64,000 nucleotides of DNA. Origin: Tachypleus tridentatus (taxonomy: Eukaryota; Arthropoda; Merostomata; Xiphosura; Limulidae). The notes below the pieces were generated by a model that searched no databases, was not told the DNA's origin, and worked only from the letters and a program-made list of their open reading frames with translations. Numbering within the stretch: position 1 is the stretch's first letter; each line of letters begins with the position of its first letter. Both the position numbers and the translations under genes were made by a program. The stretch is from positions 152,455,592 to 152,519,591 of the forward strand of contig NC_134832.1 of NCBI RefSeq assembly GCF_004210375.1, in the 5' to 3' direction. Positions 2,871-41,235 of the stretch are shown piece after piece.

Positions 2871-3034
2871 TATATAGAATAACTGCACCTGGTGACAACA
2901 ATCTTGTTAAAACACAGTACTTTTATAATAAAGTTTATTTCACAACCAATTTAAGTTCCTACCAAATTTTTAAAATTTTGTTGGATAGTCATTATAGTTT
3001 TACTTGGCAGAAATCTTGCCTTGCTAACATCTGA

Positions 3035-4700
3035 TATCCTCAGAAGTGGTTACTGTTCATGTAGATGAGGATATGGACTGGTACACCTTGATTTTCAGGA
3101 AGCACTTGACAAAGTAACACATTAAAGGCTTGTTACAATATTCATTCTATAGGTGTGGGGAATGATTTTATATAATGGACTGAAAAACATGGCTAAACAA
3201 AAGTAAACAGACTTGTTATAAATCCAGTTTAGTTAAATTGAGTTAATGTCACAAGTAAAGTACTTTAAGACTCATTATTAGAACTAGAGCTGGGTGATTA
3301 GTGGAATTTAATAGCTGATTAACTGTCAGATGCATTAACATTCAACTAATCACTTACTGTCATAAGAGATTTGGATAGTTGAAAAATTCAATAGTGGTAA
3401 TAACTGGAAACACCATTTATAATCAGATGATTAACTTGGTAACACTGTTCAACTACAGTTATCAACACACTGCTTAACTCTGCTGGTGATGTTAAGGTTT
3501 GATAACATTGTTCAACTACAGTTATCAACACACTGCTTAACTCTGCTGGTGATGGTAAGGTTTGGTAACATTGTTCAACTACAGTTATCAACACACTGCT
3601 TAACTCTGCTGGTGATGGTAAGGTTTGGTAACATTGTTCAACTACAGTTATCAACACACTGCTTAACTCTGCTGGTGATGTTAAGGTTTGGTAACATTGT
3701 TCAACTACAGTTATCAACACACTGCTTAACTCTGCTAGTGATGTTAAGGTTTGGTAACATTGTTCAACTACAGTTATCAACACACTGCTTAACTCTGCTA
3801 GTGATGTTAAGGTTTGGTAACATTGTTCAACTACAGTTATCAACACACTGCTTAACTCTGCTAGTGATGTTAAGGTGTTGCTGAGCAGAGTGCACTAATA
3901 CTTTACAAATGGATTTAGATTATTTAGAAAGTTTGAATGAATGGCACACGGCTTTATTTATAAGAAATGTAAGGCTATGCAGGTGGGTCATCATGATTTC
4001 AGTTATAAATATAACATTACAGGAATAACCTTAACAACATTATGAAACAAAAATAGTTTGTTTTTGTTGATCAGTCTCTATAAAGTCATCCACTGTTGTT
4101 AGTAGTAGTGCAAATAAGATTATAGGTTGTATCTACTAAAAAGTCTAAAGAGGTTATAATTTTATTGTATAAGTAACTGGTTAGGCCACATTTGGAATAC
4201 TGTGCTCAGTTCTTTACATTAAGAAAAACACTGAATTGTTGGCCAGAGTTCAAAGGAAAGCTACTAGGATGATACTTAGAACAGAAAGGCTATCATATAA
4301 AAACAAGTTAAGATACCTGAATGAGTTTTGTCTTGAAAAAAGCTGGAGAGCCATAGAAATCTGATTAAAGTGTTTAAGACTATTATGTTATTTCTTAGTG
4401 TTCATGTATCATCGTTTATCACATGTAATAGTAAGAATGATACGACTACAGAACATAACTATATATTCTAGCAGTTTAAGAGTCATTTTCAGTTAAGACA
4501 GTTTTACATTTTTAACAGGGATGTGTCCTTTGAAATGGGTTTGTTTCAGATACTGGATGCAGTAAATGTAAGAATGTTCAGGAGAAAGTTTGATGGATAT
4601 CATATAATGAGGGCTGATAAGTTTAGTGGATGGCACAGCCTTGATAGACATGCAGGCCCCTTGTTCTTAAATGCTATGTAACAAGGTTAGTTTTCTTTAT
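3035..4700 (+). mobile_element. Decayed CR1/L2-type LINE (RT domain remnant)
   Basis: The plus strand translates in pieces to a non-LTR RT. At 3070-3130 is DFQEALDKVTH, equivalent to the usual DFQKAFDKVPH of motif A. At 3230-3290 is a decayed version of the region that normally reads TSGVPQGSVLGP. At 3910-4020 is LQMDLDYLESLNEW followed by MQVGHHDFSYKY. At 4160-4200 is LVRPHLEYCAQF, the thumb-region signature. At 4550-4690 is the C-terminal tail. Stops and frame changes are frequent (for example tag or taa within the 4160 and 4320 segments), so it is an old dead copy. A 63-bp minisatellite (3438-3874) lies between the palm and the thumb. Confidence 0.65.
3438..3874. repeat. 63-bp minisatellite, 7 copies, inside the LINE remnant
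   Basis: Seven exact-period 63-bp units. The word gttcaactacag recurs at 3447, 3510, 3573, 3636, 3699, 3762 and 3825. Units are almost identical, with ctgctggtgatg in early units and ctgctagtgatg in late ones. The period is a multiple of three, so both strands show repeat-generated open frames of 130-150 codons that I do not count as genes. Confidence 0.95.
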
Positions 4701-5678
4701 AAAGAAGTATATGATATACAATGTCTCTTAAACATCTGGAGAATGGATAAACAGATTTGAAATATTACACTTAGCTTAAATTGATGGTGTTTAAGGATTA
4801 AAAAAATGGTAAGGGAACTTCAATGGGTTCAAACTGTTTTCTGTAACTATATATGAAACTTTATTCTCTCTACAGTTATAAACACTATGGTAAGTTAATT
4901 TTACAAGGTATAGTTACAAATTATTTACTGAAATTACTTTAGACTCATAATGTAGAGATAAATAAAAACAAGTAAAACTCCACCTTTATAGAACTAAAAG
5001 GAAATTGAAAATATATCTCCTTTTCTCTATTAATATGTGGTGATTTGTTATTTTAGGTGGTTAAAAGTTGAATTACTGACTAAATTATATATTGTATTTA
5101 AATACTGTTTGTTAATTATGATTTCATATCTGATTTTCTGATGCTCTATCCAAGAAACAACAGAAAGCTTATTAATATTACATACAAGTGAAAAATAACA
5201 AATACACAAGCTGAAACAGTGCATACAGACCAAATCTAGACAAACCAAGTGGTGTGTAAAATCCACATTCATTTTTCAAAAGTTCACGCTTGATGAACAG
5301 TATACACACCATCGTGCCCTAGAATTAACAGGTACATAAATCTCGAGAGCCAAAGCAATTATTTTAACTTGAATGATTATTTTATTCCCCCCCTTCTAGA
5401 TAACATAACTGCAAATTTTCCTCGTAGTATTCTTAAACTTTACATAAATAGTTTACTTATATGAACTTTAGCGAACTAAAGACAACTAAAGTTACTGTTG
5501 CTATGTTGTGAATTAACATAATTTCGTCTAAACTTTTTCACACACATTTAATACTACTACTAAGACAAGTTCAGACATATTAAATAGATTATGAATTCTT
5601 TCTTCAATTCATACGTTGTAAAACAAATAAAGCAAAATATTTATTATGTTTATAATGAATAGTATATTTTGACTCTAC
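4701..5678. other. Probable intron sequence, no gene seen
   Basis: AT-rich, non-repetitive DNA between the LINE remnant and the ZIP13-like exon. I searched the minus strand for a second ZIP exon (a TM2-like GLLGNVFLHLLPEA stretch) and did not see one. The next exon therefore probably lies beyond the left edge, making the first intron at least 5.6 kb. Confidence 0.45.
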
Positions 5679-7517: not shown

Positions 7518-7779
7518 GGCCCGGCATGGCCAGGTGGTTAAGGCACTCAACACATAACCCGAAGGTCACGGATTTGAATCCTCGTCGTGCCAAACATGCT
7601 CGCCCTTCCGCCGTGTGGGCGTTATAATGTTCCAATCAATCCAACTATTCGTTGGTAAAAGAGTATCCCCAGAGTTGGCAGTGGATGGTGATGACTAGCT
7701 GCCTTCCCTCTAGTCTTATACTGCTAAATTAGGGATCACACAGAGTAGTGTAACTTTGCGCGAAATTAAAACAAAAAAG
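7518..7779 (+). mobile_element. tRNA-derived SINE, near full length
   Basis: About 260 bp. The head has Pol III box A (tggccaggtgg) and box B (ggatttgaatcc). The body is caaacatgctcgcccttccg, then attcgttggtaaaagagtat, then tgatgactagctgccttccc. The tail is ctttgcgcgaaattaaaac followed by an A-rich end. Minus-strand copies of the same family occur at 47299, 49272 and 59960, which fixes the consensus. This copy is moderately diverged from those. Confidence 0.85.
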
Positions 7780-7926
7780 TATTTAACATTATATATTAAG
7801 TTTTGTTGTCGTGCCACGGTCCAGAAAAGAGTAGAAAATTGATAGTAGAGCAGAGAGTTTGCGTAAAAGTTTTATGTCATGCTGGTTGGACTCACTGATT
7901 AACTGTCAAGTAAACCCTTGATCGAG

Positions 7927-8426
7927 NNNNNNNNNNNNNNNNNNNNNNNNNNNNNNNNNNNNNNNNNNNNNNNNNNNNNNNNNNNNNNNNNNNNNNNNNN
8001 NNNNNNNNNNNNNNNNNNNNNNNNNNNNNNNNNNNNNNNNNNNNNNNNNNNNNNNNNNNNNNNNNNNNNNNNNNNNNNNNNNNNNNNNNNNNNNNNNNNN
8101 NNNNNNNNNNNNNNNNNNNNNNNNNNNNNNNNNNNNNNNNNNNNNNNNNNNNNNNNNNNNNNNNNNNNNNNNNNNNNNNNNNNNNNNNNNNNNNNNNNNN
8201 NNNNNNNNNNNNNNNNNNNNNNNNNNNNNNNNNNNNNNNNNNNNNNNNNNNNNNNNNNNNNNNNNNNNNNNNNNNNNNNNNNNNNNNNNNNNNNNNNNNN
8301 NNNNNNNNNNNNNNNNNNNNNNNNNNNNNNNNNNNNNNNNNNNNNNNNNNNNNNNNNNNNNNNNNNNNNNNNNNNNNNNNNNNNNNNNNNNNNNNNNNNN
8401 NNNNNNNNNNNNNNNNNNNNNNNNNN
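7927..8426. other. Scaffold gap of exactly 500 N
   Basis: The run of N is exactly 500 long, so it is a placeholder and not a measured distance. It sits at the left edge of the 5S array. Sequence to its left (7800-7926) shows no clear 5S similarity, so the true join and the missing length are unknown. Confidence 0.98.
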
Positions 8427-8924: not shown

Positions 8925-9936
8925 CAGCCTCAGAAGTCGCTCTTTTGTCTCTCGCTAAAGAAGTGTATGGATATTAATGAAAGTACGTTGCAAAACTGGG
9001 AATAATTCTCTGACGTTATAGAAACAGAATGAATAAAGGAACAGCACCTGTCACACTCGGCTACTACCGTTCGCGAGTCGGAAGCGTGCCACGTACCGAG
9101 TTCCTACTTATCTGAAGACGTTTTCTTCGCGTTTTGCTTTCACTGCTATGTTTTCAATTTTGCTTTTACTGTTTTGTAACTTTTTTTTTCTTGTTGTTTC
9201 TACTCGCCTATTTTGTTTTATACTCCAATAGCAAAGACTCTTGTCGTTATTGGAAAGTTAATTTTCAAATGCACATACATATAAAATAGATATTTGATTT
9301 ATAAATAAGGTGTGCAATCGTCGGTGTCTCCGAGTGAAGGCTCTCTCTGCTGGGTTATATTTCTAGACAAAGTAATTTTACAAAACGTAGCGAACGAACG
9401 TTATGTAAGGAAACTCGAAATATTTGTCGCATCGCCTTTTCTGTGTAGCAGACAGATCCCTCGACAATTGCTTTTTCTTAGGCAAAACGTGCACGAGCGA
9501 GACAATTTTGTGAAATAGGGAAACGTTTTAAATTCCATCTGTATAAGACTGCCTTAGATTGATGTGGGCTGGATCTACTCATTAACGAAGTTTCTGTTTT
9601 GTAGATTTCGCACCCTTTGTGCATTCCGAAGATCGACCCGCGAAGATAGTTTATTTCTTTTCTCTCCAATATACGTCTGATTGGAGGGGTTTGGTTTAAA
9701 GTGAAATGGAACGCGGCTCACGCCACCTGCTTAGAGAGCTGCTACTTTTCTTGAACGATCGCATGAAACGAATGTTTGAACTTCGTTTTCGAAGCGTGTT
9801 TTATCAACTGACTTGTTGATGGGAAAAGTTGATTGGTTCCTATAACAAAAATGTTTTCCCAACAGTTTACCATTATAAACACCTAGTATTAAGGCACTTC
9901 AATTGAGCCAACCACTTTCTTTCTCTCCTTAAATCA
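8925..9936. repeat. Partial leftmost 5S spacer
   Basis: Starts mid-spacer at gcctcagaagtcgctctttt and runs to the 5S remnant. It carries private variants absent from interior units but shared with the rightmost spacer: aaatgcacatacat, cttaggcaaaacg, gcatgaaacgaatg and gatgggaaaagttgattggt. Two deletions near its right end remove ctttcgggaagg and most of the 5S 3' part. Confidence 0.9.
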
Positions 9937-10000
9937 GACGAGAACCGGCGCTTTCAACGTGGTATGAACGATGACAGTTTAACGTGGTATGAACGATGAC
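9937..10000 (-). pseudogene. Truncated 5S rRNA gene remnant (nt 1-39) with a partial duplication
   Basis: 9937-9975 equals nt 1-39 of the 5S gene. The remaining 79 nt, including the whole internal promoter, are missing. The left edge is exactly the first base of the 13-bp duplication made by the LINE in other genes, give or take one base of microhomology. The first 20 nt of the gene are repeated at 9981-10000, a 25-bp tandem duplication. It cannot yield 5S rRNA. Confidence 0.9.
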
Positions 10001-11711
10001 AGTTTTCTTATTTGGTGTGTTTTAAGTGTTACTCTAAAAGAAAATCGTTGTCGCAGCCCAAAATTTCCTAGTTGTGAAATATAAGAGATGCTTTAGGAAT
10101 TCACTTTTACTGGAGGACGCTGGAAAGTGGAGCCTGATAACTCTGGTTTGCGTTACACATCCCGGAACTACACGAGTGTCATTTCGGGGTATGGAAACTG
10201 TCGCTCACAGGCGTGTGTGTCATTCACATGGAACACTTAAATTGATCAATTTAGCCTCTGAGAACTTTTCTCAAACGTCTTTTAGTCACATGTTGGTGTT
10301 TATGTCTTCTTTATATTTCTTTCGGACCTACTTTCGCAAAATCTGGTATTTTACTCTCGTTACACAGGCCCACATCCCATCACTTACAGATGTGTGTGCA
10401 GAATTTAGATTTTAACACGAGCTTGCATCGGGATTAGAATTATTTAATATTCACCTTCTTTTATTCGTCATTTGGCTATACACATTAATTTACCTGTGTT
10501 TATTAACGTGTATTTTGGTTTCCATCGGGAGAAGTCGTGTGTACTCGCCTCCTTCTCCCCTACAACAAAATAGTATTAAACGCTGGTTACCGTCTAGTGG
10601 GAGTGCCTCAGAAGTCGCTCTTTTGTCTCTCGCTAAAGAAGTGTATGGATATTAATGAAAGTACGTTGCAAAACTGGGAATAATTCTCTGACGTTATAGA
10701 AACAGAATGAATAAAGGAACAGCACCTGTCACACTCGGCTACTACCGTTCGCGAGTCGGAAGCGTGCCACGTACCGAGTTCCTACTTATCTGAAGACGTT
10801 TCTTCGCGTTTTGCTTGCACTGCTATGTTTTCAATTTTGCTTTTACTGTTTTGTAACTTTTTTTTTCTTGTTGTTTCTACTCACCTATTTTGTTTTATAC
10901 TCCAATAGCAAAGACTCTTGTCGTTATTGGAAAGTTAATTTTCAAATGTACATACATATAAAATAGATATTTGATTTATAAATAAGGTGTGCAATCGTCG
11001 GTGTCTCCGAGTGAAGGCTCTCTCTGCTGGGTTATATTTCTAGACAAAGTAATTTTACAAAACGTAGCGAACGAACGTTATGTAAGGAAACTCGAAATAT
11101 TTGTCGCATCGCCTTTTCTGTGTAGCAGACAGATCCCTCGACAATTGCTTTTCTCAGGCAAAACGTGCACGAGCGAGACAATTTTGTGAAATAGGGAAAC
11201 GTTTTAAATTCCATCTGTATAAGACTGCCTTAGATTGATGTGGGCTGGATCTACTCATTAACGAAGTTTCTGTTTTGTAGACTTCGCACCCTTTGTGCAT
11301 TCCGAAGATCGACCCGCGAAGATAGTTTATTTCTTTTCTCTCAATATACGTCTGATTGGAGGAGTTTGGTTTAAAGTGAAATGGAACGCGGCTCACGCCA
11401 CCTGCTTAGAGAGCTGCTACTTTTCTTGAACGATCGCAGGAAATGAATGTTTGAACTTCGTTTTCGAAGCGTGTTTTATCAACTGACTTGTTGATGGAAA
11501 AGTTGATTAGTTCCTATAACAAAAATGTTTTCCCAACAGTTTACCATTATAAACACCTAGTATTAAGGCACTTCAATTGAGCCAACCACTTTCTTTCTCT
11601 CTTTCGGGAAGGATTTTTTATCTCTTAAATCAGAAATTGTGAAAAAAAGTGAGAGGTATCGATCAGCTCTTTGCGAGACCTACAAATTTCAACGTGAAAA
11701 AAAAAAAAAAA
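9976..11711. repeat. 5S spacer unit 2
   Basis: Full spacer between the remnant and the first intact gene, including the 25-bp duplication at its left end. Variants: ggtgtgcaatcg with gaaggctctc, interior-type aaatgtacatac and ctcaggcaaa, accactttc, and tactccaatagc. The A-run just before 11712 is the Pol III terminator of the following gene. Confidence 0.93.
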
Positions 11712-11829
11712 GTCATCATCACCCGGTATTCCCAGGTGGTCACCCTCCCAAGTACTAACCGGGCCCGCCGTTGCTTAGCTTCGGTGATCGGACGAGAACC
11801 GGCGCTTTCAACGTGGTATGAACGATGAC
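11712..11829 (-). rRNA. 5S ribosomal RNA, intact
   Basis: 118 nt from GTCATCGTTCATACCACG to GGGTGATGATGAC, plus one or two transcribed U. The ends pair (GTCATC with GATGAC), giving helix I. Internal promoter elements are in place: box A region AAGCTAAGCAACGGC (about nt 49-63), the intermediate element, and box C region GGGTGACCACCTGGGAATAC (about nt 79-98). A run of 14 T or more follows directly and ends Pol III transcription. Upstream at about -22 to -17 is an AT-rich AAATAA that may act as the TATA-like element. The product is the 5S RNA of the large ribosomal subunit. Confidence 0.97.
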
Positions 11830-13547: not shown

Positions 13548-13639
13548 GTCATCATCACCCGGTATTCCCAGGTGGTCACCCTCCCAAGTACTAACCGGGC
13601 CCGCCGTTGCTTAGCTTCGGTGATCGGACGAGAACCGGC
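13548..13639 (-). pseudogene. 5S rRNA gene split by LINE copy 1: 3' fragment (nt 27-118)
   Basis: 92 nt carrying all internal promoter elements (box A, intermediate element, box C) and the T-run terminator. The 5' fragment lies 5.5 kb away at 19150-19188. Nt 27-39 (gacgagaaccggc on the plus strand, 13627-13639) occur in both fragments. A Pol III complex could still assemble on this fragment, but initiation would fall near the LINE poly(A) tail. Confidence 0.95.
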
Positions 13640-13914
13640 TTTTTTTTTTTTTCTCTTTATTTATCCCACCTCAACGAGGGGGTATACACAGAAATACAAC
13701 AAATAAAACACAAGTTAATGAATTAGCATGTAACAATAACTCTATAGATTACCATGCTGAAAATTACCACAAAGTTAATAAAATTAAGGAAAAGAAATAA
13801 AAGAGGTAATTGGAACAGCAGGTAATCCAACAAACATTATAATGAACATTAACAAACAAGAAATCAATGGATCTTTCATTGGTAACAAAAATATAATGAA
13901 ATAACAACTTATCT

Positions 13915-16900
13915 TAACAACGTACACAAAGAAATAACCTTGGGCACCTTGGGTTACCAAGCTACCAACATAAGAATACACAGAATAAAAAACATTTAAT
14001 GAGTTATGTAACAAAGATCTATGATAATGAAGATATATATGTCTCCGTACACGCACTTTAAACATGGAAATTAAATGAATGACGCGATTTCGTGCCAAAG
14101 AAACTGAACGAGCAGAACATATAACCTGACGTGCCAAACTTGTAATTAAACGGAATATGTTCCAGCATCTCCTGGTAACGAAGGATGAGATCCCACTAAG
14201 AGGCATCTCCTCCATACCCAGTTTGATATGGGACATCCAAAATAAAATGCCAATAATTTATATACATATGACCACAAGGGCTGTACAAAAGGACATTGGA
14301 AAAACAGATGGTCTATGGTTTCTGGCGCCTGGGAACAGAAAGTGCACAACCCTGTGGGATGTCTGTCCATATGTATCAGCTTGACATTTGTGGTAATCGC
14401 CCGCAACCAGAGTAAATAATCCACATCACAAACAAAAAAACCAACAAAAGAAGAATAAGCGTTTTTTACGAATGCGTTTCCAGTCTCCAGGAGGAACAAT
14501 ATCCCCCCAGTAGAATGGAGCAGGGAAGTTATTAGCGAGTGAAAACTGTATATATCCCACCAGTTGCCGCAGAGATAAACCTTGAAAATGAACTCGATTA
14601 TCGGAGTGGTCCAGAAAATATAAATCCACAACACATGTGGACGACGGAAGAGGAGCCGGCTGGGTAGACAAAATCGGCAACCACTCCACAGGCAACGCCT
14701 CCTTGAGCATATGAAAATGTGAAAAATTGTGCGGGCATTGGCCAACGGGTCAGCGTCCGTACACATTTCAATCACTGCCCCACCGGAAGAAAAGCAGGGA
14801 GCACCTCGTACATTAAATGACGGACCTGAACCAAACCTGCGTTAATAAATTCAGGAAAATGAAATGTTCGGTGGCGAACATCAACAATAGCCGGATTGAA
14901 AACAAAGGTTCATCAAAATTTGGGGAAAGAGGAGCTGGGACAATCCCTTTATCCCCAAGAAGAACCTTCCAGGCATGAAACATTTCCTGAATATAGAAAG
15001 GTAACGATTTCACAAAACGTGGCAAAATACGGCATTGAAGAATCCGAAAGCTTAAAGAGAGATTACCATAACAAGAAAAAATCCAGAAAGAAGTTGTCGC
15101 AAGGTGGAAGGACAAGAAGCATCCAAACAACGCTGCAACAACTTCAAACGGAATGCGAGTTTACGAGTGTTAACATCAACCAAGTTGATACCTCCACAAT
15201 CATAACTCCGAATCAGAATACCGTATGCCACTTTATGTATACCTCCCCGCCAAATAAAATCCAGTATACATTTGCGAAATCTAGCCTCAAACTGTCTTGG
15301 CAACGGGAGTATATTCAACGGGTACCATAACACCGATGCCACCAAGGAGTTCACCACAAGAGATTTACCCTTTAGCGACAAAGAACGAAATCGCCACGAC
15401 ACCAAGACACGAGATACCCTGCGCAATACACCCTGCCACGTATCTTGCAGCATGACATCGAAATTAGAGTGGAAAACTATTCCCAAAATCCGAATAGGAT
15501 CCTGGGAAATTCTCAACTCACCAAGGACGAAGTCTGCAGAAGAGGCCAAACACCCAACCCACAAACCCTGACTCTTGGTCCAGTTGATCTTCCCACCAGT
15601 AGCTTTGCCAAAAGTTTGGCAGACATCCAACACATGCGGCAAAGATTCGGCGTCTCGTAAGGTTAAGGTGGTATCATCAGCATGCTGATAAGTAAGTGAA
15701 GGCGTGGTGAGTAGCACATCACCACCAATACCAGTAATATGTACATTATGGACTAACATATTTCGTAACGGTTCGACACTGAGAACGTAAAGTAGAGCAG
15801 ACATGGGGCATCCTTGACGAATACCCCGAGTAATAGCAAAATCATTAGTGAGAAATCCATTAAACTTTACACAACTAGAAATAGAAGTATAGCAAAGACG
15901 AACCCAATGAACAAAAGTAGAACCAAAACCCATACGCAGAAGAAGTTGAAATAGATAGTCATAGGCCACCCGATCAAAAGCTTGCATCTGATCGAGCTTC
16001 AAAAAGATTCCACCCTGGCCGGTACGTGCTAAAGATTGCAATAGCAAAACGAGTGTTAATGGAGTATCAGCAACGTCCCGTCCAGGTATACACCCGGATT
16101 GGTCATCTGAAACTAAACTGGAGATCACAGACGAAAGGCGACGAGCCAGCACTTTGGCCAAAAGCTTATAGTCAGTACAAAGCAATGTCAAAGGCCGGCT
16201 GTTAGCCGCCAACCGTCGATCCCCCCTTTCGGGATAGGAACAATTACCCCAGAACACATTGTACGGAGCAACTGTGGAGAGTGAAACAGTTGAGACAAGA
16301 CAGATAAAAAGTCGTCAACAAAAAAGAGGTAGAAAATATTTGAAAAATTCGGAGGTAAAACCATCCAAACCAGGAGATTTGCCCAGCGGTAAACTGTCTA
16401 AAGCAGCGATAACTTCCGGAACCGTGAATGGAGCATCACAAATATTAGCTTGTTCACTGGAAAGAGTTCGATCAACAAATGAGAGAACTAAATCTATGTC
16501 TGCCTGCAGAACGATATCCTTAGAGTACAGTGCGGAATAATACTGATGTAAAACAGCAGCGATATCTTCCACACCGGACACCTCCACACCCCTATCAGTG
16601 AGCATGGATCTAAACTCAATTCTGCTTTGACGGACCTTTTCCATACGAAGAAAGTAAGATGTAGATCTCTCACCCTCCTCAAACCAACGAATATGAGATC
16701 GAATCCTCGCCCCCTCTATGGTATCGTGATCCAAAGTCTCCAATGCATCTTCAAGTTCATACAATTTGACCTTAGATCTACCAGGGAAACGGGTCAGTTT
16801 TCGAAGCTCACGATTGATGGACGACTCAAGCTGACATTTGCGAGAACGGGATGCCCGCGCACGAAGAATCGAATAACGCTCGGTAAGTATACGGAACGCG

Positions 16901-17769
16901 CATTTCAATTGTTCATACCATTTAATTTTATCAGTCCCATAAACTGACCAACTACGACTTCTGGCGATCAACAGCTTAATGGCTTTCACATATTCGGCAT
17001 CCCTCAATAACTGGTTATTGAAGTGCCAGAAATTAGGACCTCTGACAATTGGTCGCAGAGTAAGGTCGAAGCCCAATAAAGCGTGATCTGTAGCAGGAAA
17101 CCACAACGTACGGAAACGTTGGACAGTCCCCTGCAAGGTAGAAGAAAGCAAAACCCTGTCAATACGTGACGACATCATCTCACCATTAACAAAACGCTTC
17201 CATGTGAAACCAGGTGTAGTCGGCGATATGAGTGAATGCGCATCAAGCAAATCAAACCTATTAAGAAACTGGACAAAAGCCGAACGGCTGGCGTCTCGGT
17301 AGAAACGGACCGGAAATCGATCGCGTGCCACATCCACCACACAATTAAAATCTCCCACAACAAGCAATCCTGTGCAACCATCCAAACAATACTCCAAGTT
17401 TTGGAAAAATTCCCGTCGCTCGGAGATATCGCGAGGAGCGTACACAGATGATAACAGATAAGACAAAGACTCGAAACTGAATTTGACTGTCAGAACCCTA
17501 CCCACCCCATCAGAAGAAACGAATGTAACATTATCACACAAAACTGCTGTACCAAGATGGCAACCCTTGTCGGCCAGAAGTAGAATTATTAAAAAAAGCT
17601 ACACCTGGCCAAAATTTCAGAACGACATCAGGAAAATCATCAGTAAAAACGTTTCCTGTAAACAAACAACATCAAAATTAGTAACAAAGTAATCCAGATA
17701 ATAAGACAGCTTACTAATATTACGCAACCCATTACAATTCAAAACTCCCACCCTTAGTAAATGTACCAT
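13915..17769 (-). CDS. LINE copy 1 ORF2: endonuclease plus reverse transcriptase
   Basis: Starts at ATG 17769 (MVHLLRVGVLNCNGLRN) and spans about 1285 codons. The AP endonuclease runs to about 17040: NCNG, CLQET, VVGDFN, SRIDRVLLS and TDHALLGF. The RT is at 16500-15100: FLKLDQMQAFDRV (motif A), GIRQGCPMSALLYVL (B), and QHADDTTLTL (C, with HADD in place of YADD). The C-terminal zinc finger is CTFC-x8-H-x4-C at about 14330-14280. As assembled the frame breaks about six times, including at the A-run near 16320 and the T-run in the endonuclease. The long open stretches (408 and 401 codons) lack internal stops. The protein nicks 5S DNA and primes reverse transcription there. Confidence 0.85.
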
Positions 17770-17932
17770 GCTAAAGAGAAAGTAAAGGTACAAGAATTGA
17801 AAGGAAACTGTCACAAACACAAAAATAACAAGAATAAATGTAAAGATCTAAGCAAATATGCACAAAGTTCAAATAACAATAAATGACAGTCTTACACGAA
17901 CTGAAACAAACAAACTGTCACAAAAAACACAT

Positions 17933-19026
17933 TTAAGGCTGCGACACCGCCTTCGCCTTCGCCCGAGATATCCGTAGTATTGGCACGTCCGACACCCGTT
18001 TTCGTCCACTGCCCTTCTTAGAAGTGTCACCAGGAGACATTGCCACCACACTAGCATACCTCCAACGACGAGGAAGAGGCACCTCCACATCGCCGGCGGT
18101 ACTCACACCACTAACCGGAAGTGGCGGGAAGTGACGATCAAAATTGCGACTTGCAGCAGGGGTGACTACTTGCCCGTTCCCTGGCCCCACCAGAAACCGT
18201 CGATCGTCGGGCAGAAACATCGTCCACCACCCGATGGGTAGCTGCAGCCTTCTTTGAAAGGGGAACCTCCGAATCAACGCGTGGACAAACAGAAATGGTG
18301 TCAACATCATGAGGCACTGCACGAGAGGGAGCAGCCGTGTCTACTTCAGCGGCGTCACGAGAAGTAGTAGGCGTGGCCACTTCAGCGTCGTCACTAGAGG
18401 AAGTTCGAGGAACAACAAGCTTGGGACAACGTTGACGGACGTGTCCCTGCATATGACAATGTCGGCATATAAATTGGGGCAATCGCGATATAGATGATCC
18501 GCCCCAAACATAAATTACATACTTTTGACTGGCGATCATGCTTCACTTTTACCAATACCGCCTTGCCCAAAGGATCAAAAAACTTTACTACGTACGGCAA
18601 AGAGATACACTTCTCACTAAAACACACACGAACATGGCGTATACCTAAGTATATGCCCTGGTCCCTCTTCCACACAATAGGGCTTTTCACCTCACAATCA
18701 TAATCTTTAAGTTTATTTAGAATAATATCATCGTCGATATATTCGGGTACGTCCATAAATGACACAGTAATAGTACGTTTAGTGACACCATTAGCCGAAC
18801 AGTGCACACCATTTACAGTTAGACCAGCATCTATAGCCAGGTCCACATCGTCGGGAAGAACAAAAGTTACCTCATATCCACCCGGGCGAGGAACTACGGC
18901 AGTGACCGAAGCAGCACCAAACGTAGAAATAACAGAATGGATAACGTCCCCATGGCTTGAAGTTGTCGTTTCCACAAAAACTGTACGACGCATAACTTCC
19001 ATGACCTTCTTGGTTGATGAAGACAT
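17933..19026 (-). CDS. LINE copy 1 ORF1: RNA-binding protein with two CCHC knuckles
   Basis: ATG at 19026 (MSSSTKKVMEVMRRTVF). The N-terminal half of about 150 residues is open and resembles an RNA-binding domain with beta-rich segments (ITVSFMDVPEYIDDD). Near 18500-18430 two CCHC zinc knuckles can be read: CNLC...H...C, then CRHCHMQGHVRQRC. They fall in different frames as assembled. The changes lie at a GGGG and a CCCC run and are shared by copies 1-3. A Ser/Thr/Ala-rich, then basic, C-terminus ends AKAKAVSQP at 17933. ORF1 proteins bind the element RNA to form the transposition particle. Confidence 0.75.
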
Positions 19027-19149
19027 CGTCAAACAACTTGGAAAAATAAAAATCTAGCAAAAAAAAAAAAGAACTACACGCTCACTAGGCTTAGCTGTTA
19101 AATTTACACTAAGGCAATGAGGAGCTCGAAAAACACGTCTGTACTCGTT

Positions 19150-19188
19150 GACGAGAACCGGCGCTTTCAACGTGGTATGAACGATGAC
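19150..19188 (-). pseudogene. 5S rRNA gene split by LINE copy 1: 5' fragment (nt 1-39)
   Basis: 39 nt, beginning with the duplicated nt 27-39 at its 3' end (19150-19162). It keeps the transcription start and upstream spacer but has no internal promoter. It is the partner of the fragment at 13548-13639. Confidence 0.95.
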
Positions 19189-20908
19189 AGTTTAATTTTC
19201 TTTCTTATTTGGTGTTTTAAGTGTTACTCTAAAAGAAAATCGTTGTCGCAGCCCAAAATTTCCTAGTTGTGAAATATAAGAGATGCTTTAGGAATTCACT
19301 TTTACTGGAGGACGCTGGAAAGTGGAGCCTGATAACTCTGGTTTGCGTTACACATCCCCGGAACTACACGAGTGTCATTTCGGGGGTATGGAAACTGTCG
19401 CTCACAGGCGTGTGTGTCATTCACATGGAACACTTAAATTGATCAATTTAGCCTCTGAGAACTTTTCTCAAACGTCTTTTAGTCACATGTTGGTGTTTAT
19501 GTCTTCTTTATATTTCTTTCGGACCTACTTTCGCAAAATCTGGTATTTTACTCTCGTTACACAGGCCCACATCCCATCACTTACAGATGTGTGTGCAGAA
19601 TTTAGATTTTAACACGAGCTTGCATCGGGATTAGAATTATTTAATATTCACCTTCTTTTATTCGTCATTTGGCTATACACATTAATTTACCTGTGTTTAT
19701 TAACGTGTATTTTGGTTTCCATCGGGAGAAGTCGTGTGTACTCGCCTCCTTCTCCCCTACAACAAAATAGTATTAAACGCTGGTTACCGTCTAGTGGGAG
19801 TGCCTCAGAAGTCGCTCTTTTGTCTCTCGCTAAAGAAGTGTATGGATATTAATGAAAGTACGTTGCAAAACTGGGAATAATTCTCTGACGTTATAGAAAC
19901 AGAATGAATAAAGGAACAGCACCTGTCACACTCGGCTACTACCGTTCGCGAGTCGGAAGCGTGCCACGTACCGAGTTCCTACTTATCTGAAGACGTTTCC
20001 TTCGCGTTTTGCTTTCACTGCTATGTTTTCAATTTTGCTTTTACTGTTTTGTAACTTTTTTTTTCTTGTTGTTTCTACTCACCTATTTTGTTTTATACCC
20101 AATAGCAAAGACTCTTGTCGTTATTGGAAAGTTAATTTTCAAATGTACATACATATAAAATAGATATTTGATTTATAAATAAGGTGTTCAATCGTCGGTG
20201 TCTCCGAGTGAAGTCTCTCTCTGCTGGGTTATATTTCTAGACAAAGTAATTTTACAAAACGTAGCGAACGAACGTTATGTAAGGAAACTCGAAATATTTG
20301 TCGCATCGCCTTTTCTGTGTAGCAGACAGATCCCTCGACAATTGCTTTTTCTCAGGCAAAACGTGCACGAGCGAGACAATTTTGTGAAATAGGGAAACGT
20401 TTTAAATTCCATCTGTATAAGACTGCCTTAGATTGATGTGGGCTGGATCTACTCGTTAACGAAGTTTCTGTTTTGTAGACTTCGCACCCTTTGTGCATTC
20501 CGAAGATCGACCCGCGAAGATAGTTTATTTCTTTTCTCTCCAATATACGTCTGATTGGAGGGGTTTGGTTTAAAGTGAAATGGAACGCGGCTCACGCCAC
20601 CTGCTTAGAGAGCTGCTACTTTTCTTGAACGATCGCAGGAAATGAATGTTTGAACTTCGTTTTCGAAGCGTGTTTTATCAACTGACTTGTTGATGGAAAA
20701 GTTGATTAGTTCCTATAACAAAAATGTTTTCCCAACAGTTTACCATTATAAACACTTAGTATTAAGGCACTTCAATTGAGCCAACCAATTTCTTTCTCTC
20801 TTTCGGGAAGGATTTTTATCTCTTAAATCAGAAATTGTGAAAAAAGTGAGAGGTATCGATCAGCTCTTTGCGAGACCTACAAATTTCAACGTGAAAAAAA
20901 AAAAAAAA
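19189..20908. repeat. 5S spacer unit 4
   Basis: Full spacer with ggtgttcaatcg and gaagtctctc, tacccaatagc, tactcgttaacg and accaatttc. The last two mark the central block of units (19-28 kb) as a sub-family distinct from the outer units. Confidence 0.93.
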
Positions 20909-21026
20909 GTCATCATCACCCGGTATTCCCAGGTGGTCACCCTCCCAAGTACTAACCGGGCCCGCCGTTGCTTAGCTTCGGTGATCGGACGAGAACCGGC
21001 GCTTTCAACGTGGTATGAACGATGAC
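20909..21026 (-). rRNA. 5S ribosomal RNA, intact
   Basis: 118 nt, identical by eye to the gene at 11712. It is followed on its own strand by 15 T (20894-20908) as terminator. It is the first of four intact genes in a row between LINE copies 1 and 2. Confidence 0.97.
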
Positions 21027-22749
21027 AGTTTAATTTTCTTTCTTATTTGGTGTTTTAAGTGTTACTCTAAAAGAAAATCGTTGTCGCAGCCCAAAATTTC
21101 CTAGTTGTGAAATATAAGAGATGCTTTAGGAATTCACTTTTACTGGAGGACGCTGGAAAGTGGAGCCTGATAACTCTGGTTTGCGTTACACATCCCCGGA
21201 ACTACACGAGTGTCATTTCGGGGGTATGGAAACTGTCGCTCACAGGCGTGTGTGTCATTCACATGGAACACTTAAATTGATCAATTTAGCCTCTGAGAAC
21301 TTTTCTCAAACGTCTTTTAGTCACATGTTGGTGTTTATGTCTTCTTTATATTTCTTTCGGACCTACTTTCGCAAAATCTGGTATTTTACTCTCGTTACAC
21401 AGGCCCACATCCCATCACTTACAGATGTGTGTGCAGAATTTAGATTTTAACACGAGCTTGCATCGGGATTAGAATTATTTAATATTCACCTTCTTTTATT
21501 CGTCATTTGGCTATACACATTAATTTACCTGTGTTTATTAACGTGTATTTTGGTTTCCATCGGGAGAAGTCGTGTGTACTCGCCTCCTTCTCCCCTACAA
21601 CAAAATAGTATTAAACGCTGGTTACCGTCTAGTGGGAGTGCCTCAGAAGTCGCTCTTTTGTCTCTCGCTAAAGAAGTGTATGGATATTAATGAAAGTACG
21701 TTGCAAAACTGGGAATAATTCTCTGACGTTATAGAAACAGAATGAATAAAGGAACAGCACCTGTCACACTCGGCTACTACCGTTCGCGAGTCGGAAGCGT
21801 GCCACGTACCGAGTTCCTACTTATCTGAAGACGTTTTCTTCGCGTTTTGCTTTCACTGCTATGTTTTCAATTTTGCTTTTACTGTTTTGTAACTTTTTTT
21901 TTTCTTGTTGTTTCTACTCACCTATTTTGTTTTATACCCAATAGCAAAGACTCTTGTCGTTATTGGAAAGTTAATTTTCAAATGTACATACATATAAAAT
22001 AGATATTTGATTTATAAATAAGGTGTTCAATCGTCGGTGTCTCCGAGTGAAGTCTCTCTCTGCTGGGTTATATTTCTAGACAAAGTAATTTTACAAAACG
22101 TAGCGAACGAACGTTATGTAAGGAAACTCGAAATATTTGTCGCATCGCCTTTTCTGTGTAGCAGACAGATCCCTCGACAATTGCTTTTCTCAGGCAAAAC
22201 GTGCACGAGCGAGACAATTTTGTGAAATAGGGAAACGTTTTAAATTCCATCTGTATAAGACTGCCTTAGATTGATGTGGGCTGGATCTACTCGTTAACGA
22301 AGTTTCTGTTTTGTAGATTTCGCACCCTTTGTGCATTCCGAAGATCGACCCGCGAAGATAGTTTATTTCTTTTCTCTCCAATATACGTCTGATTGGAGGG
22401 GTTTGGTTTAAAGTGAAATGGAACGCGGCTCACGCCACCTGCTTAGAGAGCTGCTACTTTTCTTGAACGATCGCAGGAAATGAATGTTTGAACTTCGTTT
22501 TCGAAGCGTGTTTTATCAACTGACTTGTTGATGGAAAAGTTGATTAGTTCCTATAACAAAAATGTTTTCCCAACAGTTTACCATTATAAACACCTAGTAT
22601 TAAGGCACTTCAATTGAGCCAACCAATTTCTTTCTCTCTTTCGGGAAGGATTTTTTATCTCTTAAATCAGAAATTGTGAAAAAAAGTGAGAGGTATCGAT
22701 CAGCTCTTTGCGAGACCTACAAATTTCAACGTGAAAAAAAAAAAAAAAA
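21027..22749. repeat. 5S spacer unit 5
   Basis: 1723-bp spacer of the central sub-family (accaatttc, tacccaatagc) with ggtgttcaatcg and gaagtctctc. It contains a perfect 16-bp palindrome TAAATTGATCAATTTA at 21273-21288, which recurs in every complete spacer. Short hairpins also recur (ctccaat...attggag and cttcgttttcgaag). Confidence 0.93.
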
Positions 22750-22867
22750 GTCATCATCACCCGGTATTCCCAGGTGGTCACCCTCCCAAGTACTAACCGG
22801 GCCCGCCGTTGCTTAGCTTCGGTGATCGGACGAGAACCGGCGCTTTCAACGTGGTATGAACGATGAC
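22750..22867 (-). rRNA. 5S ribosomal RNA, intact
   Basis: 118 nt, same sequence as the other intact copies. The T-run terminator on its strand is about 16 long. Spacing to the neighbouring intact genes is 1841 and 1842 bp. Confidence 0.97.
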
Positions 22868-24591
22868 AGTTTAATTTTCTTTCTTATTTGGTGTTTTAAG
22901 TGTTACTCTAAAAGAAAATCGTTGTCGCAGCCCAAAATTTCCTAGTTGTGAAATATAAGAGATGCTTTAGGAATTCACTTTTACTGGAGGACGCTGGAAA
23001 GTGGAGCCTGATAACTCTGGTTTGCGTTACACATCCCCGGAACTACACGAGTGTCATTTCGGGGGTATGGAAACTGTCGCTCACAGGCGTGTGTGTCATT
23101 CACATGGAACACTTAAATTGATCAATTTAGCCTCTGAGAACTTTTCTCAAACGTCTTTTAGTCACATGTTGGTGTTTATGTCTTCTTTATATTTCTTTCG
23201 GACCTACTTTCGCAAAATCTGGTATTTTACTCTCGTTACACAGGCCCACATCCCATCACTTACAGATGTGTGTGCAGAATTTAGATTTTAACACGAGCTT
23301 GCATCGGGATTAGAATTATTTAATATTCACCTTCTTTTATTCGTCATTTGGCTATACACATTAATTTACCTGTGTTTATTAACGTGTATTTTGGTTTCCA
23401 TCGGGAGAAGTCGTGTGTACTCGCCTCCTTCTCCCCTACAACAAAATAGTATTAAACGCTGGTTACCGTCTAGTGGGAGTGCCTCAGAAGTCGCTCTTTT
23501 GTCTCTCGCTAAAGAAGTGTATGGATATTAATGAAAGTACGTTGCAAAAACTGGGAATAATTCTCTGACGTTATAGAAACAGAATGAATAAAGGAACAGC
23601 ACCTGTCACACTCGGCTACTACCGTTCGCGAGTCGGAAGCGTGCCACGTACCGAGTTCCTACTTATCTGAAGACGTTTCCTTCGCGTTTTGCTTTCACTG
23701 CTATGTTTTCAATTTTGCTTTTACTGTTTTGTAACTTTTTTTTTCTTGTTGTTTCTACTCACCTATTTTGTTTTATACCCAATAGCAAAGACTCTTGTCG
23801 TTATTGGAAAGTTAATTTTCAAATGTACATACATATAAAATAGATATTTGATTTATAAATAAGGTGTGCAATCGTCGGTGTCTCCGAGTGAAGGCTCTCT
23901 CTGCTGGGTTATATTTCTAGACAAAGTAATTTTACAAAACGTAGCGAACGAACGTTATGTAAGGAAACTCGAAATATTTGTCGCATCGCCTTTTCTGTGT
24001 AGCAGACAGATCCCTCGACAATTGCTTTTTCCCAGGCAAAACGTGCACGAGCGAGACAATTTTGTGAAATAGGGAAACGTTTTAAATTCCATCTGTATAA
24101 GACTGCCTTAGATTGATGTGGGCTGGATCTACTCGTTAACGAAGTTTCTGTTTTGTAGATTTCGCACCCTTTGTGCATTCCGAAGATCGACCCGCGAAGA
24201 TAGTTTATTTCTTTTCTCTCCAATATACGTCTGATTGGAGGGGTTTGGTTTAAAGTGAAATGGAACGCGGCTCACGCCACCTGCTTAGAGAGCTGCTACT
24301 TTTCTTGAACGATCGCAGGAAATGAATGTTTGAACTTCGTTTTCGAAGCGTGTTTTATCAACTGACTTGTTGATGGAAAAGTTGATTAGTTCCTATAACA
24401 AAAATGTTTTCCCAACAGTTTACCATTATAAACACCTAGTATTAAGGCACTTCAATTGAGCCAACCAATTTCTTTCTCTCTTTCGGGAAGGATTTTTTAT
24501 CTCTTAAATCAGAAATTGTGAAAAAAGTGAGAGGTATCGATCAGCTCTTTGCGAGACCTACAAATTTCAACGTGAAAAAAAAAAAAAAAAA
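22868..24591. repeat. 5S spacer unit 6
   Basis: Central-type spacer (accaatttc) but with ggtgtgcaatcg and gaaggctctc, and cccaggcaaaacg in place of ctcaggcaaaacg. The run in gcaaaaactggg is one A longer than in units 4 and 5. Confidence 0.93.
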
Positions 24592-24709
24592 GTCATCATC
24601 ACCCGGTATTCCCAGGTGGTCACCCTCCCAAGTACTAACCGGGCCCGCCGTTGCTTAGCTTCGGTGATCGGACGAGAACCGGCGCTTTCAACGTGGTATG
24701 AACGATGAC
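24592..24709 (-). rRNA. 5S ribosomal RNA, intact
   Basis: 118 nt, complete internal promoter. It has the longest terminator T-run of the intact genes (about 18). Confidence 0.97.
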
Positions 24710-26433
24710 AGTTTAATTTTCTTTCTTATTTGGTGTTTTAAGTGTTACTCTAAAAGAAAATCGTTGTCGCAGCCCAAAATTTCCTAGTTGTGAAATATAA
24801 GAGATGCTTTAGGAATTCACTTTTACTGGAGGACGCTGGAAAGTGGAGCCTGATAACTCTGGTTTGCGTTACACATCCCCGGAACTACACGAGTGTCATT
24901 TCGGGGGTATGGAAACTGTCGCTCACAGGCGTGTGTGTCATTCACATGGAACACTTAAATTGATCAATTTAGCCTCTGAGAACTTTTCTCAAACGTCTTT
25001 TAGTCACATGTTGGTGTTTATGTCTTCTTTATATTTCTTTCGGACCTACTTTCGCAAAATCTGGTATTTTACTCTCGTTACACAGGCCCACATCCCATCA
25101 CTTACAGATGTGTGTGCAGAATTTAGATTTTAACACGAGCTTGCATCGGGATTAGAATTATTTAATATTCACCTTCTTTTATTCGTCATTTGGCTATACA
25201 CATTAATTTACCTGTGTTTATTAACGTGTATTTTGGTTTCCATCGGGAGAAGTCGTGTGTACTCGCCTCCTTCTCCCCTACAACAAAATAGTATTAAACG
25301 CTGGTTACCGTCTAGTGGGAGTGCCTCAGAAGTCGCTCTTTTGTCTCTCGCTAAAGAAGTGTATGGATATTAATGAAAGTACGTTGCAAAAACTGGGAAT
25401 AATTCTCTGACGTTATAGAAACAGAATGAATAAAGGAACAGCACCTGTCACACTCGGCTACTACCGTTCGCGAGTCGGAAGCGTGCCACGTACCGAGTTC
25501 CTACTTATCTGAAGACGTTTCCTTCGCGTTTTGCTTTCACTGCTATGTTTTCAATTTTGCTTTTACTGTTTTGTAACTCTTTTTTTTTCTTGTTGTTTCT
25601 ACTCACCTATTTTGTTTTATACCCAATAGCAAAGACTCTTGTCGTTATTGGAAAGTTAATTTTCAAATGTACATACATATAAAATAGATATTTGATTTAT
25701 AAATAAGGTGTGCAATCGTCGGTGTCTCCGAGTGAAGTCTCTCTCTGCTGGGTTATATTTCTAGACAAAGTAATTTTACAAAACGTAGCGAACGAACGTT
25801 ATGTAAGGAAACTCGAAATATTTGTCGCATCGCCTTTTCTGTGTAGCAGACAGATCCCTCGACAATTGCTTTTTCCCAGGCAAAACGTGCACGAGCGAGA
25901 CAATTTTGTGAAATAGGGAAACGTTTTAAATTCCATCTGTATAAGACTGCCTTAGATTGATGTGGGCTGGATCTACTCGTTAACGAAGTTTCTGTTTTGT
26001 AGACTTCGCACCCTTTGTGCATTCCGAAGATCGACCCGCGAAGATAGTTTATTTCTTTTCTCTCCAATATACGTCTGATTGGAGGAGTTTGGTTTAAAGT
26101 GAAATGGAACGCGGCTCACGCCACCTGCTTAGAGAGCTGCTACTTTTCTTGAACGATCGCAGGAAATGAATGTTTGAACTTCGTTTTCGAAGCGTGTTTT
26201 ATCAACTGACTTGTTGATGGAAAAGTTGATTAGTTCCTATAACAAAAATGTTTTCCCAACAGTTTACCATTATAAACACTTAGTATTAAGGCACTTCAAT
26301 TGAGCCAACCAATTTCTTTCTCTCTTTCGGGAAGGATTTTTTATCTCTTAAATCAGAAATTGTGAAAAAAGTGAGAGGTATCGATCAGCTCTTTGCGAGA
26401 CCTACAAATTTCAACGTGAAAAAAAAAAAAAAA
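24710..26433. repeat. 5S spacer unit 7, mosaic of two variants
   Basis: Shares cccaggcaaaacg and gcaaaaactggg with unit 6. At 25708-25740 it combines ggtgtgcaatcg (as unit 6) with gaagtctctc (as units 4, 5 and 8). Every other spacer has the two sites in matching states, so this unit looks like a conversion or crossover product. Confidence 0.93.
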
Positions 26434-26551
26434 GTCATCATCACCCGGTATTCCCAGGTGGTCACCCTCCCAAGTACTAACCGGGCCCGCCGTTGCTTAG
26501 CTTCGGTGATCGGACGAGAACCGGCGCTTTCAACGTGGTATGAACGATGAC
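26434..26551 (-). rRNA. 5S ribosomal RNA, intact
   Basis: 118 nt, the last intact gene before LINE copy 2. The distance to the next gene start is 1839 bp. Confidence 0.97.
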
Positions 26552-28272: not shown

Positions 28273-28364
28273 GTCATCATCACCCGGTATTCCCAGGTGG
28301 TCACCCTCCCAAGTACTAACCGGGCCCGCCGTTGCTTAGCTTCGGTGATCGGACGAGAACCGGC
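28273..28364 (-). pseudogene. 5S rRNA gene split by LINE copy 2: 3' fragment (nt 27-118)
   Basis: Same 92-nt fragment and same break as at 13548, with target duplication at 28352-28364. Internal promoter and terminator are intact. The partner is at 33876-33914. Confidence 0.95.
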
Positions 28365-28635
28365 TTTTTTTTTTTTTTCTCTTTATTTATCCCACCTCAA
28401 CGAGGGGGTATACACAGAAATACAACAAATAAAACACAAGTTAATGAATTAGCATGTAACAATAACTCTATAGATTACCATGCTGAAAATTACCACAAAG
28501 TTAATAAAATTAAGGAAAAAGAAATAAAAGAGGTAATTGGAACAGCAGGTAATCCAACAAACATTATAATGAACATTAACAAACAAGAAATCAATGGATC
28601 TTTCATTGGTAACAAAAATATAATGAAATAACAAC

Positions 28636-31600
28636 TTATCTTAACAACGTACACAAGAAATAACCTTGGGCACCTTGGGTTACCAAGCTACCAACATAAG
28701 AATACACAGAATAAAAAACATTTAATGAGTTATGTAACAAAGATCTATGATAATGAAGATATATATGTCTCCGTACACGCACTTTAAACATGGAAATTAA
28801 ATGAATGACGCGATTTCGTGCCAAAGAAACTGAACGAGCAGAACATATAACCTGACGTGCCAAACTTGTAATTAAACGGAATATGTTCCAGCATCTCCTG
28901 GGTAACGAAGGATGAGATCCCACTAAGAGGCATCTCCTCCATACCCAGTTTGATATGGGACATCCAAAATAAAATGCCAATAATTTATATACATATGACC
29001 ACAAGGGCTGTACAAAAGGACATTGGAAAAACAGATGGTCTATGGTTTCTGGCGCCTGGGAACAGAAAGTGCACAACCCTGTGGGATGTCTGTCCATATG
29101 TATCAGCTTGACATTTGTGGTAATCGCCCGCAACCAGAGTAAATAATCCACATCACAAACAAAAAAACCCACAAAAGAAGAATAAGCGTTTTTACGAATG
29201 CGTTTCCAGTCTCCAGGAGGAACAATATCCCCAGTAGAATGGAGCAGGGAAGTTAGTAGCGAGTGAAAACTGTATATATCCCACCAGTTGCCGCAGAGAT
29301 AAACCTTGAAAATGAACTCGATTATCGGAGTGGTCCAGAAAATATAAATCCACAACACATGTGGACGACGGAAGAGGAGCCGGCTGGGTAGACAAAATCG
29401 GCAACCACTCCACAGGCAACGCCTCCTTGAGCATATGAAAATGTGAAAAAATTGTGCGGGCATTGGCCAACGGGTCAGCGTCCGTACACATTTCAATCAC
29501 TGCCCCACCGGAAGAAAAGCAGGGAGCACCTCGTACATTAAATGACGGACCTGAACCAAACCTGCGTTAATAAATTCAGGAAAATGAAATGTTCGGTGGC
29601 GAACATCAACAATAGCCGGATTGAAAAACAAAGGTTCATCAAAATTTGGGGAAAGAGGAGCTGGGACAATCCCTTTATCCCCAAGAAGAACCTTCCAGGC
29701 ATGAAACATTTCCTGAATATAGAAAGGTAACGATTTCACAAAACGTGGCAAAATACGGCATTGAAGAATCCGAAAGCTTAAAGAGAGATTACCATAACAA
29801 GAAAAAAATCCAGAAAGAAGTTGTCGCAAGGTGGAAGGACAAGAAGCATCCAAACAACGCTGCAACAACTTCAAACGGAATGCGAGTTTACGAGTGTTAA
29901 CATCAACCAAGTTGATACCTCCACAATCATAACTCCGAATCAGAATACCGTATGCCACTTTATGTATACCTCCCCGCCAAATAAAATCCAGTATACATTT
30001 GCGAAATCTAGCCTCAAACTGTCTTGGCAACGGGAGTATATTCAACGGGTACCATAACACCGATGCCACCAAGGAGTTCACCACAAGAGATTTACCCTTT
30101 AGCGACAAAGAACGAAATCGCCACGACACCAAGACACGAGATACCCTGCGCAATACACCCTGCCACGTATCTTGCAGCATGACATCGAAATTAGAGTGGA
30201 AAACTATTCCCAAAATCCGAATAGGATCCTGGGAAATTCTCAACTCACCAAGGACGAAGTCTGCAGAAGAGGCCAAACACCCAACCCACAAACCCTGACT
30301 CTTGGTCCAGTTGATCTTCCCACCAGTAGCTTTGCCAAAAGTTTGGCAGACATCCAACACATGCGGCAAAGATTCGGCGTCTCGTAAGGTTAAGGTGGTA
30401 TCATCAGCATGCTGATAAGTAAGTGAAGGCGTGGTGAGTAGCACATCACCACCAATACCAGTAATATGTACATTATGGACTAACATATTTCGTAACGGTT
30501 CGACACTGAGAACGTAAAGTAGAGCAGACATGGGGCATCCTTGACGAATACCCCGAGTAATAGCAAAATCATTAGTGAGAAATCCATTAAACTTTACACA
30601 ACTAGAAATAGAAGTATAGCAAAGACGAACCCAATGAACAAAAGTAGAACCAAAACCCATACGCAGAAGAAGTTGAAATAGATAGTCATAGGCCACCCGA
30701 TCAAAAGCTTGCATCTGATCGAGCTTCAAAAAGATTCCACCCTGGCCGGTACGTGCTAAAGATTGCAATAGCAAAACGAGTGTTAATGGAGTATCAGCAA
30801 CGTCCCGTCCAGGTATACACCCGGATTGGTCATCTGAAACTAAACTGGAGATCACAGACGAAAGGCGACGAGCCAGCACTTTGGCCAAAAGCTTATAGTC
30901 AGTACAAAGCAATGTCAAAGGCCGGCTGTTAGCCGCCAACCGTCGATCCCCCCTTTCGGGATAGGAACAATTACCCCAGAACACATTGTACGGAGCAACT
31001 GTGGAGAGTGAAACAGTTGAGACAAGACAGATAAAAAGTCGTCAACAAAAAGAGGTAGAAAATATTTGAAAAATTCGGAGGTAAAACCATCCAAACCAGG
31101 AGATTTGCCCAGCGGTAAACTGTCTAAAGCAGCGATAACTTCCGGAACCGTGAATGGAGCATCACAAATATTAGCTTGTTCACTGGAAAGAGTTCGATCA
31201 ACAAATGAGAGAACTAAATCTATGTCTGCCTGCAGAACGATATCCTTAGAGTACAGTGCGGAATAATACTGATGTAAAACAGCAGCGATATCTTCCACAC
31301 CGGACACCTCCACACCCCTATCAGTGAGCATGGATCTAAACTCAATTCTGCTTTGACGGACCTTTTCCATACGAAGAAAGTAAGATGTAGATCTCTCACC
31401 CTCCTCAAACCAACGAATATGAGATCGAATCCTCGCCCCCTCTATGGTATCGTGATCCAAAGTCTCCAATGCATCTTCAAGTTCATACAATTTGACCTTA
31501 GATCTACCAGGGAAACGGGTCAGTTTTCGAAGCTCACGATTGATGGACGACTCAAGCTGACATTTGCGAGAACGGGATGCCCGCGCACGAAGAATCGAAT

Positions 31601-32495: not shown

Positions 32496-32658
32496 GCTAA
32501 AGAGAAAGTAAAGGTACAAGAATTGAAAGGAAACTGTCACAAACACAAAAATAACAAGAATAAATGTAAAGATCTAAGCAAATATGCACAAAGTTCAAAT
32601 AACAATAAATGACAGTCTTACACGAACTGAAACAAACAAACTGTCACAAAAAACACAT

Positions 32659-33751: not shown

Positions 33752-33875
33752 CGTCAAACAACTTGGAAAAATAAAAATCTAGCAAAAAAAAAAAAAGAAC
33801 TACACGCTCACTAGGCTTAGCTGTTAAATTTACACTAAGGCAATGAGGAGCTCGAAAAACACGTCTGTACTCGTT

Positions 33876-41111: not shown

Positions 41112-41235
41112 CGTCAAACAACTTGAAAAATACAAAATCTAGCAAAAAAAAAAAAAAAACTACACACTCACTAGGCTTAGCTGTTAAATTTACACTAAGG
41201 CAATGAGGAGCTCGAAAAACACGTCTGTACTCGTT

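Follow-up and report, generated by a model that had tools for sequence, protein, structure and literature searches.

The 64-kb stretch of the Tachypleus tridentatus genome analysed here (the window; contig NC_134832.1) carries an array of 5S ribosomal RNA (rRNA) genes in which four copies of a long interspersed nuclear element (LINE), termed c1 to c4, have their 3′ junction at the same place, between 5S nucleotides (nt) 26 and 27. The element is very probably a non-long-terminal-repeat retrotransposon of the L1/Tx1 type, in which an endonuclease encoded by the second open reading frame (ORF2) cuts one site of the 5S rRNA gene. A reading of the sequence alone had already proposed a 5S-site-specific LINE, and this proposal is supported by the junctions, the poly(A) tails, the protein domains and the occupation of the same base by at least two diverged lineages.

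Insertion of a LINE at one base of the 5S rRNA gene

The 5S array has a unit length of about 1.84 kb, with its genes on the minus strand. Rfam returned nine 5S matches in the window, which blastn divided into five intact genes and four that retain nt 27-119 and then run into the LINE, in agreement with the earlier count of four occupied genes among nine with a 3′ end. The intact genes (20908-21026, 11711-11829, 22749-22867, 24591-24709 and 26433-26551, all minus strand; Rfam and blastn) are identical to each other across all 119 nt. The spacers are themselves homogenised, yet differ between units.

All four LINE copies lie on the minus strand, in the same direction as the 5S genes. Three are full-length, as blastn and junction analysis showed: c1 (13640-19149; 5510 nt, ending in a 13-A tail), c2 (28365-33875; 5511 nt, 14 A) and c3 (35723-41235; 5513 nt, 17 A). 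Each is bounded by the same 13-bp target site duplicate, GACGAGAACCGGC, which is 5S nt 27-39 read on the opposite strand (GCCGGTTCTCGTC in gene sense) and is present twice, at 13627-13639 (element 3′ end) and 19150-19162 (element 5′ end) for c1, at 28352-28364 and 33876-33888 for c2, and at 35710-35722 and 41236-41248 for c3. The poly(A) tail adjoins 5S nt 27 in each case, the 5′ ends start with the same bases (AACGAGTACAG), and the far side consists of 5S nt 1-39 (3/3). When the flanks are joined minus one duplicate, an intact 119-nt 5S gene is restored at every full copy, so that the three full-length copies with an identical 13-bp duplicate described in the sequence-only reading are borne out by three junctions and three restored genes.

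The fourth copy, c4 (43090-46474), is diverged (about 94% identity) and truncated at its 5′ end. It had been placed between nt 39 and nt 27, and this holds for the 3′ junction, which falls at nt 27 (43077-43089), but not for the 5′ side, where the sequence is not 5S and no second target duplicate was found. Its tail is of 3 A only, and no exact match to 5S nt 1-26 occurs beyond 41249-41274. A blastn search of the 64-kb window with c1 as query (E up to 1e-5) recovered these four copies, each beside 5S sequence, and no LINE copy away from 5S. Many copies outside 5S genes had been named beforehand as a finding that would speak against the proposal; none occurs in the window, which was the entire scope of the search, and copies elsewhere in the genome may likewise be rare.

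The orientation, the tail and the duplicate, along with the established behaviour of LINEs, suggest that insertion proceeds by target-primed reverse transcription. The endonuclease would first nick the antisense strand at the 26/27 boundary of the 5S gene (5′-ACCGGC^GCTTTC-3′), giving a free 3′ end from which the element RNA would be reverse transcribed, beginning in its poly(A) tail. A second cut would follow in the sense strand after nt 39, 13 nt further along, and on repair the element would be oriented like the 5S gene, with nt 27-39 present on both sides. The 5S internal promoter, at about nt 50-97, lies whole downstream of the insert, which separates the upstream 39 nt from it, and judging from this arrangement an occupied unit could hardly give an intact 5S RNA. 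The array may thereby serve the element as a renewable safe harbour, where units that take up an insert cease to be RNA genes and their neighbours stay intact.

A 5S remnant at 9933-10005 consists of nt 1-39 fused straight to downstream spacer, and its break coincides, within 2 bp of microhomology, with the LINE cut site at nt 39/40. This remnant may represent a failed LINE insertion that was repaired as a deletion. Within the same region, a 25-bp unit forms an exact double repeat (9956-10005).

Coding content

In c1, ORF1 starts with an ATG at 19026, and a zinc knuckle of the form CX2CX4HX4C follows at 18426-18467 (minus strand) in a frame other than that of the ORF1 start, with an apparent frame change upstream of it. 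Each full copy (3/3) has the knuckle at element nt 683. No Pfam family reached its own cut-off on the ORF1 pieces, and the predicted ORF1 structure (mean predicted local distance difference test score, pLDDT, of 34) was discarded as unusable.

ORF2 has a region of the apurinic/apyrimidinic (AP) endonuclease type (17083-17769 in c1, minus strand), which runs from a VHLLRVGVLNCNG start via QET and GDFN to TDH, with an apparent frame change past QET. In c2, the reverse transcriptase (RT) domain PF00078 (RVT_1; 30202-30933, minus strand; E 1.7e-29; motifs AFD, QGCP and HADD) and the C-terminal zf-RVT domain PF13966 (28999-29169, minus strand; E 1.6e-9) exceed their Pfam cut-offs; the AP-endonuclease family PF03372 (Exo_endo_phos) matches weakly and under its cut-off (E 2.2e-4 for the c2 piece, 0.31 for an N-terminal piece). 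Among solved structures the best match of ORF2 is L1 ORF2p, aligned from the endonuclease to the start of the RT with E 3.2e-25 and across the RT with 1.3e-32. The translation P0001, taken from a c3 frame and briefly off-frame, matches L1 ORF2p over endonuclease plus RT (E 3.7e-60), against 1.5e-9 over the RT only for the best R2 match, and by this comparison ORF2 is L1-like rather than R2-like. LINEs of the R2 type have a restriction-like endonuclease C-terminal to the RT and no AP-type endonuclease; they, and other LINEs with restriction-like endonucleases, are ruled out by the AP-type endonuclease N-terminal to the RT together with the separate ORF1. With E values up to 0.1 allowed, no RNase H match was obtained in the pieces searched, six in number, which do not span every base.

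Scans of viral contigs (P0001, P0006 and a junction pattern), of GTDB genome contigs (P0003) and of plasmids and phages (tblastn, P0001) returned no relatives; those with single proteins detect close relatives only. Since these collections hold viruses, prokaryotes, plasmids and phages, the scans do not inform on the rarity of the element among animals.

Divergence and number of insertions

Between the three pairs of full copies there are 6, 15 and 18 mismatches over about 5500 aligned bases, along with 13 to 27 gap columns (99.7-99.9% identity, gaps aside), whereas c4 has 194-195 mismatches with each of them over about 3376 aligned bases (194 of 3377 against c2). The identity between c4 and c2 is uneven, at 97% over the first 87 bases, 85-89% over aligned positions 2201-2800, 93-99% over 2801-5200 and about 90% over 5201-5500, a pattern which suggests that c4 is a mosaic produced by recombination between element lineages. 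The ratio of nonsynonymous to synonymous substitution rates (dN/dS) between c2 and c4 is 0.34 over 667 compared codons in six codon blocks, which omit the C-terminal part, include a second block of 13 aligned codons only and a first block far more diverged than the others; from this ratio, the c2 and c4 lineages each appear to descend from elements under coding selection.

Because c4, about 6% diverged and with a different tail, shares the 3′ junction base of the full copies, there were at least two insertion events at nt 26/27. The identical duplicate alone does not establish three independent events, since a unit that already carries the element could be duplicated by unequal crossing-over. 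We therefore compared spacer differences with element differences after dropping an ill-aligned end, in which six differences in one spacer (S8) fall within the last ~70 aligned columns, beside A runs; the test had seemed strong before this removal, and its p values are uncorrected for several tests. The 5′ flank of c1 differs from that of c2 at 9/1648 positions (0.55%), against 6/5504 (0.11%) between the elements (p 0.002), and from that of c3 at 14/1648 (0.85%), against 18/5498 (0.33%; p 0.01). As only these c1 5′ flanks stand out once the end is removed, we rejected the conclusion that the identical duplicates at three copies mean as many independent events. Two insertion events are demonstrated, three are probable and four are possible.

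Weighing of alternative explanations

Several observations weigh against repeated insertion by a 5S-specific element. The 5′ end of c4 abuts non-5S DNA at 46474. No copy retains intact reading frames, ORF2 shifting frame in each of them, and c1-c3 have in common a frame change, located in a G run near element nt 2930, that c4 lacks, as would be expected of a real shared inactivation. The 3′ flanks of c1 show no excess of differences over the elements in comparison with c2 and c3 (p 0.44 and 0.63), and for c2 and c3, which occupy adjacent units, the flanks are not clearly separated from the elements (p 0.21 and 0.32; the c2-c3 flank test otherwise gave p 0.19, and 0.04 once gap-adjoining bases were masked too). 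Gene conversion within the array could also mimic recent spread. Of these points, the shared frame change, the 3′ flanks, and the adjacency and flanks of c2 and c3 are what one would look for if an element without strict 5S specificity had landed by chance in one or two 5S units and its copies had then been amplified through unequal crossing-over and gene conversion; the near-identity of c1-c3 and the homogenisation of the spacers fit such multiplication as well. We nevertheless consider this improbable, given the second, diverged lineage with its 3′ junction at the same base, the excess of differences in the 5′ flanks of c1 over those inside the elements, and the confinement of all copies in the window to 5S genes. 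With regard to the broken frames, 15 of the 20 indel events among c1-c3 fall inside runs of at least three identical bases, and at aligned position 4073 one length is common to c1, c3 and the diverged c4, the frame continuing in c2 alone. Errors in the long-read consensus are therefore the likelier cause, with real inactivation as the alternative, and we did not accept that the elements are dead on the strength of their frames, even though the shared change near nt 2930 counts the other way. The same indel pattern, together with a 500-N assembly gap at 7927-8426, directly ahead of the 5S array, could be taken to mean that the copies themselves are an artefact of collapsed or chained assembly in a repeat array, but this is very improbable, as the junctions are exact and c1-c3 differ from each other in aligned bases, as do their spacers.

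Given insertion by a 5S-specific LINE, its placement in the Tx1 clade is plausible. The layout of ORF2, with an AP-type endonuclease and an RT and no RNase H match in the pieces searched, is that of Tx1-clade elements; a CCHC knuckle in ORF1, a further feature of the clade, is present in all three full copies. In the 64 kb, all four copies share the one target base; insertion specific to a target would be expected of the target-specific branch of the clade. Alternatively, the element could be an ordinary LINE of the L1 clade, or of another clade with an AP-type endonuclease, that acquired its 5S preference secondarily. The matches to solved structures, which comprise only L1 and R2 types with L1 ORF2p as the best, are compatible with this, and so are the Jockey-like LINEs in the 5S arrays of Tribolium freemani, which indicate, in the available part of that report, that other clades can associate with 5S genes (PMC11202950). 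We regard this origin as rather unlikely, because the combination of a CCHC knuckle with a site-specific habit fits Tx1 and the inferred cut differs from the TTTT/A site of L1. The L1 clade proper was set aside on the cut site: in that clade it is a loose TTTT/A, and the cut proposed here, ACCGGC/GC, is at one base in 4/4 copies.

Comparison with known 5S-associated elements

A 5S rRNA gene-specific LINE of zebrafish, Mutsu, was reportedly described by Kojima and Fujiwara in 2004; it belongs to the Tx1 clade, and several Mutsu subfamilies exist in zebrafish. In the accessible parts of two publications, Mutsu is a LINE of about 5.5 kb with two ORFs that targets 5S genes (PMC11202950, PMC3706591), and a partly available study of the maternal and somatic 5S types of zebrafish reports different retrotransposon target sites for the two (PMC5513064). 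The element described here resembles Mutsu in its insertion within the 5S rRNA gene, and its 5510-5513 nt and its ORF1 and ORF2 regions, with their broken frames, compare with the about 5500 bp and two ORFs given in the accessible text (PMC11202950). It differs in its host genome. By analogy, the element would work like Mutsu, and since Mutsu has the same habit, we have here a further 5S-targeting LINE of an already known kind. What is new is another 5S-specific LINE in another host; a 5S-specific LINE as such has already been described. No LINE inserted in chelicerate 5S genes was found among the matches listed for the open-licence literature, Repbase lying outside the scope of that search.

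A parallel among arthropods comes from Tribolium freemani, in which, according to the part of the report available, Jockey-like LINEs of about 5 kb regularly interrupt the 5S arrays and 32 of 113 5S copies, confined to the LINE-bearing arrays, are without 30 bp at the start (PMC11202950). These shortened copies could be 5S genes with an insertion around nt 30, in the vicinity of the nt 26/27 site described here. The two cases share a similar element size and an interrupted arthropod 5S array; they differ in that the authors class the Tribolium elements as Jockey, that these are associated with a satellite, and the Results section of the report gives neither an exact 5S junction nor a duplicate (PMC11202950). 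Keno and other Tx1-clade LINEs, as outlined in an excerpt, likewise have an AP-type endonuclease and are target-specific for multicopy RNA genes, which for Keno are the U2 small nuclear RNA genes (PMC4640811). The Dada-5S elements of fish, DNA transposons that target 5S genes, use the target sequence ATTCCCAGGCGGTC, which lies in another part of the 5S gene than the LINE site (PMC8869645, partial text), and Dada elements have a DDE transposase and 6-7 bp duplicates according to the accessible text (PMC3706591). Membership in Dada is ruled out by the RT, the poly(A) tail and the 13-bp duplicate.

Considered together with the Tribolium report, it is conceivable, albeit tentatively, that a LINE lineage of this host gained 5S specificity independently of the fish Mutsu, at a base of its own (nt 26/27) that was kept while its subfamilies diverged by about 6%, and that unrelated arthropod LINEs may converge on the beginning of the 5S gene. 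From a 5S-specific LINE in one more animal lineage it could be learned whether 5S targeting arose repeatedly and which surfaces of the endonuclease recognise the 5S site, and site-specific LINEs are relevant to the insertion of DNA at safe, repeated sites. With a high load of occupied genes (4/9 of those that have a 3′ end) next to intact, mutually identical ones, this array is also a good case for studying the removal or toleration of insertions by 5S arrays.

Other features of the window

Inverted similar ends (caggggtgtgcaac ... ttgcacaccctg) enclose a 139-aa frame at about 47682-48930, which we take to be a possible hAT-like transposon. Two stretches, at about 7519-7780 and 47300-47570, contain cccggcatggccaggtgg or a complement-like form of it and could be tRNA-derived short interspersed nuclear elements (SINEs); ARAGORN called no tRNA gene in the window, these candidate stretches included. 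A 208-bp unit forms an exact tandem duplicate at 56627-57044. Minisatellite arrays, some of them with open frames on both strands, occur at 200-645, 1637-2290, 3436-3876, 60754-62290 and 62637-63363, with units of 44, 33, 63, 36 and 33 bp, respectively.

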